A DNA stretch of 34,679 nucleotides from Chloroflexota bacterium (GTDB lineage Bacteria > Chloroflexota > Dormibacteria > CF-121), in the NCBI GenBank assembly GCA_005881235.1, contig VBEQ01000147.1:1-34679 (forward strand). Direction: 5' to 3'. The number at the start of each line of letters is the position of its first letter. Position 1 is the stretch's first letter. The notes under the pieces were generated by a model. The model did no database searches. It was not told the origin of the DNA and was given only the letters and a program-made list of their open reading frames with translations. This document shows positions 30,500 to 34,679 of the stretch, piece by piece. Position numbers and translations under genes: made by a program.

Positions 30500-31891
30500 T
30501 CATGAGGATGCCGCCTGCGGCCCTTGCGACCGCCCCGCCTCCGTTTGTTGCACGGCTTCGACTCGCAGACGAAGGCCGTCCACGCCGACCACGCGTACTG
30601 GCGCGCCGGCATCGAGCGGGCCACTGGTTGAGGTGGCTTGCCAGAGCGCGCCGTTGACGAACACCATCCCGCTGGGGTTCAACGGTTCTCGCACCGAACC
30701 GAGGCTGCCGATCATCGACTCCTCGCCCGCCGCGTACGGACGCCGCCGGGCATCGAGCAGCTTGCGCAGGATGAAGAGGAAGACGGCGGCGATGACGAGC
30801 ACCGTGATTACGAGCAGTGGGATGTTGACGCCCTCGGCCAGGAAGCTGGTATTGATCAACAGCAGGCCGCCGAGCGTCATCGCGACGATGCCGCCGGTGG
30901 TCAGCACCCCGTGGGTCACCGCTTTGAGGTCGACAATGAACAGCACCACCGCGATCAGGATGAGGATGATCCCGGCGATGTTGACCGGGAGATCGAACAT
31001 CGACACCGCGGCGAGCACGCCGGCGATGACGCCGATCACCCCGGGCAGGAACATGCCGGGGTGCGTGACCCAGAAGCCGATGCCAATCAGCGCCAGCAGG
31101 AACAGAAGGTACACGAGGTTCGGGTCGGCGACTGCCTGGAGAAACTGATCGAAGCCACTCATGTCGTAGTGCTGGATGCCGGCGTTCGCGGTTTGCAGGG
31201 TGTATGTCTGGCCGCCCTTTGAGACATGGCGGGCGTCGAGGTCCTGGAGCAACGTGTCCAGGTCCCTGCTTTCGAAATCGACCACGCCCAATTTCACGGC
31301 GTCATCCACGGGCGCATTGATGCTCTGCCGGACGGCCTTCTCGGCCCAGTCCGCGTTGCGGTGGTGCAGCGCGGCCAGGGCCCGAATGTAGGCGGCCGCG
31401 TCGTTTTCGATCTTCTGCGATTCGATATCCGGTGCCGTCGACGTGGCGCCGCTCGCGCTCGGGCTTGCCGCCGGGGTGGCGGCCGGGTTGGAGCCGCCAA
31501 GGCTGACGGGATGGGCCGAGCCGATGTTCGTCCCCGGGGCCATCACGGCGATATCGGCCGCCTCCGTGATGTAGAGGCCGGCCGAGGCGGCCCGGGCGCC
31601 TGAGGGCGACACGAAGATCACGACGGGCAGCGGCGCGCCCAGGATCTTCTTGATGATGTGGCGCATCGAGGTGTCGAGCCCACCCGGGGTATCCATCGCG
31701 ATGATCAGCGCGTTGGCCTGCCCAGAGACGGCCTTGTCGACCGCGGTGGAGACGTAGTTGTCAGTGATCGGATTGATGACCCCGTTGAGGGTCGCGACCA
31801 GGACGTGCGGCTCGGCGGCGCGGGCTTGAACCGCGGGCAGCAAAACGGCCAGCATGGTGGCCGCGAGAAAGAGCCGGGCGGCCCTCGTCAC
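30500..31891 (-). CDS. NfeD-family membrane-bound serine protease (ClpP-class)
   Basis: Signal-peptide-like N-terminus from GTG 31891; LIIAMDTPGGLDTSMRHIIKKILGAPLPVVIFVSPSGARAASAGLYITEAADIAVMAPGTNIGSAHPV; C-terminal TMs plus NfeD OB-fold. Confidence 0.93.
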   Translation of the reverse strand: MTRAARLFLAATMLAVLLPAVQARAAEPHVLVATLNGVINPITDNYVSTAVDKAVSGQANALIIAMDTPGGLDTSMRHIIKKILGAPLPVVIFVSPSGARAASAGLYITEAADIAVMAPGTNIGSAHPVSLGGSNPAATPAASPSASGATSTAPDIESQKIENDAAAYIRALAALHHRNADWAEKAVRQSINAPVDDAVKLGVVDFESRDLDTLLQDLDARHVSKGGQTYTLQTANAGIQHYDMSGFDQFLQAVADPNLVYLLFLLALIGIGFWVTHPGMFLPGVIGVIAGVLAAVSMFDLPVNIAGIILILIAVVLFIVDLKAVTHGVLTTGGIVAMTLGGLLLINTSFLAEGVNIPLLVITVLVIAAVFLFILRKLLDARRRPYAAGEESMIGSLGSVREPLNPSGMVFVNGALWQATSTSGPLDAGAPVRVVGVDGLRLRVEAVQQTEAGRSQGPQAASS

Positions 31892-31941
31892 GACTTGATC
31901 ATAGCCCCGGTTTACGGCCTTGTCGTTCGTAGAATGGGAAC

Positions 31942-32544
31942 ATGGCCCAACGCGTGGAACAGCAGCCGCCGAAAGACGAGGAGGAGGAGATCCGGGCGCA
32001 AGTCGCGCGCTATCCACGACTGTCCAACGCGCAGGAACAGCGGCTCCTTGCCACCCAGGGGGTGGAGCGCGATGCGGCGAACCGGACGCTGATCGAGCAT
32101 AACCTCCACCTGGTGGTGGAGGCCGCGCAGGCGCGCAAGAAGCACGGCGTCCCCTTTGGCGACCTCTTCCAGGAAGGGACGGTCGGGTTGATCTCGGCCA
32201 TCGAGCACTACCAGCCCGGAGACGGCGGCTTCCATGCCCGGTTGGTACACGCGATCGACGTCACCATGGATGACGTGCTCGCCCAGACGCAAGAAGCCCA
32301 GCGCAACGACGAAGCCTTCGTCGTCGCCTGCCGCCTGCTGGAATCGGCGCAGCGGCTGCTGTCGGAGCGGCTGGACCGCGAGGCGACGCCCGCCGAGCTG
32401 GCCAAGCTTCTGCAGTGGGAGGAGGCGCGCGTCAATATCATTCTGGAGATGCTGCGAGGGGCCGAGGTGGTCCACGACCAGGAGCTGCTCGACTACCTCG
32501 ACCTCCTCGACGACGCGGACGATCCTGACGACCCCGAGGCGTAA
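31942..32544 (+). CDS. Degenerate sigma-70-like protein retaining region 2.1/2.2-like and region 3-like segments, lacking recognisable region 4
   Basis: LIEHNLHLVVEAAQARKKHGVPFGDLFQEGTVGLISAIEHYQPGDGGF resembles sigma region 2; RLLSERLDREATPAELAKLLQWEEARVNIILEML resembles region 3; acidic tail LDDADDPDDPEA. Confidence 0.75.
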   Translation: MAQRVEQQPPKDEEEEIRAQVARYPRLSNAQEQRLLATQGVERDAANRTLIEHNLHLVVEAAQARKKHGVPFGDLFQEGTVGLISAIEHYQPGDGGFHARLVHAIDVTMDDVLAQTQEAQRNDEAFVVACRLLESAQRLLSERLDREATPAELAKLLQWEEARVNIILEMLRGAEVVHDQELLDYLDLLDDADDPDDPEA

Positions 32545-32547
32545 CGT

Positions 32548-33639
32548 TTGGTCGTGACGGCCGCGCGGACACCGCTGTACGAGGAGCATGTCCGTCTCGG
32601 CGCCCAGATGACGAACTTCGGAGGCTGGGTGATGCCGCTTCAGTACAGCACGATCCGCGAAGAGCACCACGCCGTGCGCGAGGCTGTGGGCCTCTTCGAT
32701 CTTTCGCATATGGGTGAGCTGCGCATCGGGGACGAAACCCTCGTCCAGCGTGTCCTCAGTCGCGACGTGACGCGACTGCGCCCGGGACGGATCCAGTACG
32801 CGGTGCTCTGCAACGACGCGGGCGGCATCATCGATGACGTGCTCGTTTATGCGATGCCGGACCGCGGCTACCTGCTGGTGGTCAATGCCGGCAACCAGGA
32901 CGGCGACTTCGACTGGATCCGAAAACACGCCCAGGCCGCGGACGCGGCCCGCAATGTCGGCCGGGAGTGGGCGCTGATCGGCGTGCAGGGCCCGCGAGCG
33001 GTGGATCTCGTTCAGCGGCTGACGCCGTCTGACCTCGCCAGTGTCAAGTACTATGCCTTCGTCGACGGGACCGTTGCGGATGTGTCGTGCGTGATCTCGC
33101 GGACCGGCTATACGGGTGAGGATGGCTTCGAGCTTTTTTGTGGCAACGCCGACGCCGTGCGGCTGTGGCGCGCGCTGCTGGAGGAGGGGCGGTCCGATGG
33201 CATCCGGCCGGCCGGCCTGGGCGCCCGCGACACCCTTCGCCTCGAAGCGGGCATGCGCCTCTACGGCAATGACATGGACGCGCAGACGAATCCCCTTGAG
33301 GCAGGGCTCGATTGGACGCTCAACCTCGAGAAGGATTTCATCGGCCGCGACGCCATCATGACGTCTCGCCAGCGGGGCCTCGCGCGGCAGCTGGTTGGCT
33401 TCAAGATGCTGGACCGCAGCATTCCACGCCACGGCTACCGCATCGTCAGTGATGGCGAGGGCGTCGGGACGGTGACGTCGGGAAACGTCTCCTTCACGCT
33501 TGGCTACAACATCGGGATGGCCTACGTGCCGCCTGCCATGTCCGAGCCGGGAACCCGTCTCGGCGTGGACATTCGTGGCGCCGCCGCGCCGGCCGAGGTC
33601 GTCCCGCTGCCTTTTTACAAGCGGCCTCATCCGAAGTGA
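32548..33639 (+). CDS. gcvT: Glycine cleavage system T protein (aminomethyltransferase)
   Basis: TPLYEEHVRLGAQMTNFGGWVMPLQYSTIREEHHAVREAVGLFDLSHMGE; RTGYTGEDGFELF. Start codon uncertain (TTG 32548 or GTG 32554). Confidence 0.97.
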   Translation: MVVTAARTPLYEEHVRLGAQMTNFGGWVMPLQYSTIREEHHAVREAVGLFDLSHMGELRIGDETLVQRVLSRDVTRLRPGRIQYAVLCNDAGGIIDDVLVYAMPDRGYLLVVNAGNQDGDFDWIRKHAQAADAARNVGREWALIGVQGPRAVDLVQRLTPSDLASVKYYAFVDGTVADVSCVISRTGYTGEDGFELFCGNADAVRLWRALLEEGRSDGIRPAGLGARDTLRLEAGMRLYGNDMDAQTNPLEAGLDWTLNLEKDFIGRDAIMTSRQRGLARQLVGFKMLDRSIPRHGYRIVSDGEGVGTVTSGNVSFTLGYNIGMAYVPPAMSEPGTRLGVDIRGAAAPAEVVPLPFYKRPHPK

Positions 33640-33655
33640 AGGAAAGGGAGTTAGG

Positions 33656-34042
33656 ATGCCAGACCTGACCGGCATGCGTTTCGCGGAGACCCACGAGTGG
33701 GTCAAGCAGGACGGAGAGACGGCGACGGTGGGGATCAGCGAGTATGCCCAGTCGCAGCTCGGTGACGTGATCTACCTCGAACTGCCGGCGGTTGGTCAGC
33801 AGCTCGACGCTGGCGCGCGGCTGGGGGTCATCGAATCGGTGAAGGCGGCTTCCGACCTGTACAGTCCCGTTGGTGGCGAGGTGACAGAGGCCAACGCGGA
33901 GCTCAAAGATCATCCCGAGTACGTCAACCAGGATCCCTACGGCAAGGGCTGGATCATCAAGCTCCGCGCCGTGAAGGACAATCCCAAGCTCCTCGACCAG
34001 AAAGCCTACGACGCGTTCGTCGAGGGCCAGTCGCACTCGTGA
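33656..34042 (+). CDS. gcvH: Glycine cleavage system H protein
   Basis: RFAETHEWVKQDGETATVGISEYAQSQLGDVIYLELPAVGQQL; LGVIESVKAASDLYSPVGGEVTEAN. Confidence 0.97.
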   Translation: MPDLTGMRFAETHEWVKQDGETATVGISEYAQSQLGDVIYLELPAVGQQLDAGARLGVIESVKAASDLYSPVGGEVTEANAELKDHPEYVNQDPYGKGWIIKLRAVKDNPKLLDQKAYDAFVEGQSHS

Positions 34043-34049
34043 TCTCCTG

Positions 34050-34679
34050 GTGACCTACCTCCCCAACGCCGACGCCGAGCGCGCCGAGATGCTCAAAGCG
34101 CTCGAGCTGGAGAGCATCGACGGCCTGTTCACGCACCTCCCCGAGGCACTCAAATTGGATCGCGTCGACCTCCCCGAGCCGCTCTCCGAGGTGGAATTGG
34201 TGCAGTACGTTCGCGAGCTCGGCCGCCTGAACGCGAGGATTTCGCCGGCGAACAGCTTTCTGGGTGCTGGCGCCTCGCGACGCTTCAGTCCGGCGATCGT
34301 CAATCAGGTCATTTCGCGACCGGACTTCTATACGACCTACACGCCCTACCAGGCGGAGGCCAGCCAGGGCACGCTGCAGGCGACCTACGAGTTTCAGAGC
34401 ATGATCACCCTTCTCACCGGACTGGATGTGGCGAACGCCTCCCTGTACGACGGCGCGACGGCGCTGGCGGAAGCAACGGCGATGGCGGTCGCCCACACGA
34501 ACCGCCAGAACGTGGTTGTGGCCGGCGCGCTTCATCCCGAGTACGCGCAGGTGCTCAAGACCTACTCCGAGGCCCAGCAGTACGAGATCCTGCGGGTCGC
34601 GCCCGGGGCCGATGGCCGGGTCGACCTCGCGAAGCTGGAGCAGGCCGTCACCAGCACCACCGCCGCGCTCATCCTGCAG
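34050..34679 (+). CDS. gcvPA: Glycine dehydrogenase (decarboxylating) subunit 1, truncated by window end
   Basis: From GTG 34050: MTYLPNADAERAEMLKALELESIDGLFTHLPEAL...SFLGAGASRRFSPAIVNQVISRPDFYTTYTPYQAEASQGTLQATYEFQSMITLLTGLDVANASLYDGATALAEA. Confidence 0.94.
   Translation, partial: MTYLPNADAERAEMLKALELESIDGLFTHLPEALKLDRVDLPEPLSEVELVQYVRELGRLNARISPANSFLGAGASRRFSPAIVNQVISRPDFYTTYTPYQAEASQGTLQATYEFQSMITLLTGLDVANASLYDGATALAEATAMAVAHTNRQNVVVAGALHPEYAQVLKTYSEAQQYEILRVAPGADGRVDLAKLEQAVTSTTAALILQ

Follow-up and report, generated by a model that had tools for sequence, protein, structure and literature searches.

A sigma-70-derived protein of one Chloroflexota class that lacks region 4 and the promoter-reading residues and retains the core-binding face

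Introduction

What could a relative of sigma-70 do at the head of a glycine cleavage operon if it has lost the parts with which a sigma factor reads a promoter? The question is raised by a gene in the window, by which we mean the whole stretch of Chloroflexota DNA that was analysed (34,679 nucleotides). The preliminary description had called its product a degenerate sigma-70-like protein and suggested a core RNA polymerase (RNAP)-binding regulator or sigma decoy, possibly tied to one-carbon or glycine metabolism. Region 2.2 is known to dock on the beta' coiled-coil, also called the clamp helices (PMC2988020; PMC4598750). A literature search found no paper on the sigma-derived protein; most subscription journals were outside its coverage, and hence this is a weak negative.

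Results

The gene occupies positions 31942 to 32544 of the forward strand, with an ATG start and a TAA stop at 32542 to 32544, and encodes a protein of 200 amino acids that the open reading frame, Pfam, orthologues and purifying selection identify as a sigma derivative without region 4. Searches with sigma-70 HMMs recovered both of the blocks that had been recognised by eye: a region 2.1/2.2-like block, as a Pfam Sigma70_r2 match at residues 50 to 99 (E = 2.8e-7), and a region 3-like helix block, as a Sigma70_r3 match at residues 133 to 172 (E = 9.8e-7), both above the curated cut-off. The Sigma70_r2 match covers only positions 1 to 51 of the 71 in the model, and thus ends at the start of regions 2.3/2.4. 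Region 4 gave no Pfam match in the 200-residue protein, as had been expected. The best matches in the NCBIfam search were group 1/2 sigmas (about 1e-15), and NCBIfam and PDB searches together grouped the protein with RpoS, RpoD and other sigma factors of group 1/2. With hhalign, alignment to sigma70 and other full sigmas extended from region 1.2 to the start of region 3.2 (probability 99.5, E = 2e-22). By homology, these searches establish that the protein is a member of the sigma-70 family.

The alignments divide the protein, from its N-terminus, into five segments, all encoded on the forward strand. Residues 20 to 49 (31999 to 32088) form a region 1.2-like segment, RYPRLSNAQEQRLL, which was absent from the preliminary description and emerged from profile-profile alignment with sigma70. 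Regions 2.1-2.2, with the core-RNAP-binding face kept, follow at residues 50 to 92 (32089 to 32217; FGDLFQEGTVGLISAIEHY), within the Sigma70_r2 match. Next are the converted regions 2.3-3.0 (residues 96 to 130; 32227 to 32331), in which, by alignment, the promoter-reading residues are lost and the charge is inverted, and then the region 3.1-like helices matched by Sigma70_r3 (residues 131 to 173; 32332 to 32460). The acidic C-terminal tail noticed earlier is indeed present (32461 to 32541), and alignment shows that it carries a family motif, HDxELLxYL-like. It aligns weakly with the sigma finger (region 3.2), the hhalign partner being DDEDSHLGDFIED, and the loop before it is missing. No effector domain that would hint at an input was found in the protein.

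Against the primary sigma of the same genome, the alignment was gapless from F427, at the start of region 2.3, to region 3.1; the converted stretch therefore has the same length as in the sigma and has been rewritten, not deleted. In AlphaFold2 models of two orthologues, for each of which one of five models was confident, one continuous helix of about 48 residues (97 to 144) is predicted to span regions 2.3 to 3.1, which would fit the loss of P453, a proline found there in sigmas. The best Foldseek matches of the AlphaFold model were sigma factors, with a loose superposition (TM 0.46, rmsd about 10 A). Among the 26 region 2 proteins of the genome, 25 have an adjoining region 4 match, the sole exception being the sigma-derived protein. 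The same genome also contains two RpoD-like sigma genes in tandem (G000:C176, L012).

Which residues were kept and which were lost was determined by aligning 23 family members with E. coli sigma70, whose numbering is used here. In regions 2.1-2.2, the equivalents of D403, L404, Q406, E407, G408 and L384 are 96-100% conserved: L384, D403 and G408 are present in all 23 members, and Q406 and E407 in 22. We take D403, Q406 and E407, which correspond to D74, Q77 and E78 of the window protein, to be the residues that contact the clamp helices in core binding. Conservation is not complete around them, as their neighbours N409, L402 and I405 are replaced, QDG replaces QEG at two f4 loci, and Q406 is missing from one f3 member. 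On the DNA side the pattern is the reverse. Not one of the 23 members has W433, W434, R436, Q437, R441 or H455, which bears out the claim that the aromatic -10-reading residues of region 2.3/2.4 are missing; T440 is replaced by D or E in 21 of 23, position Y430 is F or Y in 15, and F427 is retained in 18. W433, W434, Q437 and R441 are taken to be among the residues with which region 2.3/2.4 reads and melts the -10 element. The net charge of positions 420 to 460 (regions 2.3-3.0) is -1 to -7 in the family versus +2 to +4 in sigmas, a change of sign from about +3 to -3.5.

The same division appeared among the 61 positions that are invariant in five full sigmas. Those present in at least 90% of the family were L111, L384, A391, G398, D403, L404, Q406, E407, G408, A415, R476 and E482, whereas those present in no member included W433, W434, R436, Q437, R441, P453, V454 and H455, among others. 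Sigma70_r3 matched 21 of the 23 members and Sigma70_r2 18 (E <= 0.01); a region 4 match was found in 0 of the 23 tested, and no orthologue has an intact region 2.4 or region 4. As judged from its sequence, the protein thus has neither the -10-reading residues of a functional sigma factor nor its region 4, the part for -35 reading and flap binding. Both losses are conserved in homologues, and the suggestion that it is not a promoter-specific sigma is supported.

Of 38 genomes sampled from the class, 36 have an orthologue that was detected with a profile of the C-terminal half (E <= 1.5e-24); the 263 genomes of other Chloroflexota have none. The next matches, at about 1e-8, lay in other Chloroflexota and in the window's own genome and were ordinary sigma region 3 segments. 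BLAST against Chloroflexota genomes likewise identified clear orthologues in almost all genomes of the class, across four families (f1 to f4), with identities from 95% down to about 25-30%; the named relatives are Chloroflexi MAGs. Both sampled genomes without the gene, G004 and G223, belong to family f2, and G004 is 1.5 Mb in size and 98% complete; the gene may have been lost in reduced lineages such as this one. The range searched with the tail profile comprised Chloroflexota genomes, phages and plasmids, and no relatives were found among the viral contigs, phages and plasmids searched, on which ground a phage or plasmid origin was rejected.

Between close orthologues dN/dS is 0.04-0.16, a range that marks the gene as functional and not decaying. 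The pN/pS ratio is equal (0.21-0.22) in the core-binding, converted and region 3 segments and is higher only in the N-terminus and tail. As the converted segment is as constrained as the core-binding segment, it must be maintained for some purpose.

Downstream, the arrangement is as first described: the stop codon of the gene is followed, 3 nt beyond, by the TTG that opens the gcvT reading frame at 32548, and Pfam matches to GCV_T, GCV_H and GDC-P succeed one another on the forward strand. They correspond to gcvT, an aminomethyltransferase (32548 to 33639; PF01571, 9.5e-94, and PF08669), gcvH (33500 to 34042 as listed; PF01597, 4.7e-41), whose true start is probably near 33650, past the gcvT stop, and the N-terminal subunit of gcvP (34050 to 34679; PF02347, 5e-52), which is cut by the window end. 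No RNA element and no glycine riboswitch was detected in an Rfam search of the window.

Upstream of the gene a -10 box, TAGAAT, lies at 31930 to 31935 on the forward strand, 12 nt before the ATG, and is conserved in three families (f1, f3 and f4) while the surrounding DNA diverges. In 20 of 22 loci of these families, the box (TAGAAT, TAAAAT or TATACT) starts 12-16 nt upstream of the start codon, and in 21 of 22 it is no more than 25 nt away, compared with a mean of 0.43 of 22 and a maximum of 4 in shuffles. The exception, L022, has its box at -36 from the chosen start, and an earlier ATG is present there. No such box was found in five f2 loci, where the gene stands closely behind other genes. 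A conserved -10 box so close to the start predicts a leaderless or near-leaderless transcript with the gene at its head, and in its own lineage the gene heads the gcv operon, as had been supposed; the sequence predicts a near-leaderless sig-gcvT-gcvH-gcvP transcript headed by the sigma-derived gene.

On the opposite strand, a divergent gene for an nfeD-type membrane protein (30500 to 31891, minus strand; Pfam NfeD domains) is syntenic in f1 and most f3 loci. It seems near-leaderless as well, with TATGAT at 31903 to 31898, six nt before its GTG start at 31891. Most f3 loci (L028-L032, L035-L037 and L039) share a conserved upstream motif, TGTAAAACGTGGAACAT, that resembles parS. A parA gene is found near the gene in the window, and parA/parB-like genes occur in L069; no close match to parS was found within the window.

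Adjacency to gcvT was counted in genomes with a listed gcvT. It was found in 63 of 66 genomes of f1, f3 and f4, with gcvT downstream and in the same orientation in all 15 f1, all 37 f3 and 11 of 14 f4 genomes; in nearly all of them the matched stretches are 20-53 nt apart. In L005 and L016 gcvT appeared as three separate matching pieces, suggesting frameshifts or assembly errors. In f2 adjacency was 0 of 19: gcvT is on a different contig in 18 and 152 kb off in one, and at loci L062-L068 GNAT-like and SRPBCC-like genes precede the gene, and a convergent dinB-like gene is also present (products named by eye). In the three remaining f4 genomes the gene adjoins a divergent gene that resembles glucose-6-phosphate dehydrogenase (zwf; also named by eye). 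Linkage to glycine cleavage is thus genuine, but it is confined to certain lineages. The proposed one-carbon or glycine tie is only partly supported: gcvT linkage is conserved in three of the four families, and the tie is weakened by f2, with the gene in a GNAT-SRPBCC operon, and by the three f4 genomes in which it lies elsewhere. Only where the gene heads the gcv operon could it have a specific connection with glycine metabolism.

Discussion

The gene is best explained as descending by vertical inheritance from a sigma-70 factor of group 1/2. Region 4 has gone, as have the residues of regions 2.3-3.0 that read promoters, and the region 2.1/2.2 dock for the beta' clamp helices has been retained. 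Because the key promoter-reading residues and the C-terminal DNA-binding domain are lost and the polymerase-gripping surface is kept, the protein is probably a regulator of the polymerase and not a chooser of promoters. For the inference in the preliminary description, a core-binding protein that does not read promoters is the best-supported reading of the sequence comparisons, and we give about an even chance to its fuller form, in which the protein binds core RNAP via the clamp helices, does not select particular promoters, and competes with sigma or modulates it. NusG uses the same RNA polymerase site as sigma2. The protein would grip core polymerase as sigma2 does and be unable to hold promoter DNA; it could then compete with or modulate sigma, and perhaps also NusG, or act after initiation. 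For the acidic replacement helix and the tail we envisage a part in repelling DNA or filling the DNA/RNA channel. More speculatively, and with less confidence than an even chance would imply, we suggest a class-wide 'blank sigma', with its clamp-helix dock kept and an acidic surface in place of DNA recognition, which would occupy the sigma2/NusG site either to keep sigma from binding again or to function in elongation, and which would be autoregulated in some lineages at the head of the gcv operon.

Several other explanations were weighed against a core-binding regulator. That an ordinary sigma gene has been locally truncated or has become a pseudogene might be supposed from the missing region 4 and the partly matched region 2 model; but all relatives share the architecture, even at identities of about 25-30%, dN/dS is low and gcvT lies directly downstream, which leaves this with negligible probability, and the orthologues and dN/dS together refute truncation, frameshift and pseudogene alike. 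It is unlikely that the sigma fold has been repurposed for work away from RNA polymerase, for instance to regulate the glycine cleavage system metabolically or structurally. Such a role would account for the tight spacing and for the gcvT linkage seen in three families (63 of 66 genomes), and the converted helix is under selection for something, but there is no other obvious reason for keeping exactly the core-docking residues, and the gene persists apart from the gcv genes across the whole of f2.

The main counter-model is PhyR, which titrates the anti-sigma factor NepR. We also think it unlikely that the protein mimics a sigma in this manner, drawing off an anti-sigma factor and thereby freeing a true sigma. 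PhyR likewise has a sigma-like domain without promoter-reading residues (PMC8103513), anti-sigmas such as RseA bind region 2.2 (PMC4598750), and the host has about 25 other sigmas; however, the core-RNAP surface reported to be degenerate in PhyR (PMC8103513) is here the best conserved part, there is no receiver domain, and no anti-sigma or kinase gene is linked in the neighbourhoods examined. A subunit of a split sigma, completed by a separate region 4 protein as in RsoA/SigO or T4 gp55/gp33, should, if it served as a working sigma2, still read the -10 element, whereas this protein lacks the residues for doing so and has an acidic surface. Domain-split sigmas do exist (PMC8103513; PMC2988020), and the genome has a few small reading frames with isolated region 4-like HTHs (C212, C184 and C84), but none of the loci examined has a linked region 4 gene, and we consider this arrangement very improbable.

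Throughout a whole bacterial class, the surface for docking on RNA polymerase has been preserved and, under strong selection, the side that faces DNA has been remade. Binding of the core polymerase, if it occurs, would make the protein a sigma antagonist or elongation-phase factor of a new sort, the product of a near-core gene of one class of soil and freshwater Chloroflexota, in uncultured soil bacteria.

Comparison with known systems places the protein beside several others without making it equivalent to any. With the group 1/2 sigma-70 factors (RpoD, RpoS and cyanobacterial group 2) it shares collinear regions 1.2, 2.1-2.2 and 3.1 and the clamp-helix-binding motif DLxQEG; unlike them, it is 200 amino acids long, has an inverted charge and has no region 4 and no residues that read the -10, -12 or extended -10 elements. 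PhyR, of the alphaproteobacterial general stress response, also has a sigma-like domain unable to read promoters, but that domain is of the ECF type and joined to a receiver, with a core-binding surface reported as degenerate (PMC8103513), whereas the protein described here has no receiver and no region 4 and keeps the core-binding residues. RsoA is similarly a separate protein with sigma region 2 and without region 4; it supports promoter-specific transcription with a region 4 partner, whereas here region 3 is present and both a linked partner and the promoter-reading residues are absent. T4 gp55 is likewise a small sigma relative recognised mainly through regions 2.1-2.2, with a conserved acidic C-terminal segment (PMC2988020); gp55, however, is a phage promoter-recognition subunit, whereas the protein described here lacks the DNA-contact residues and has no phage match.
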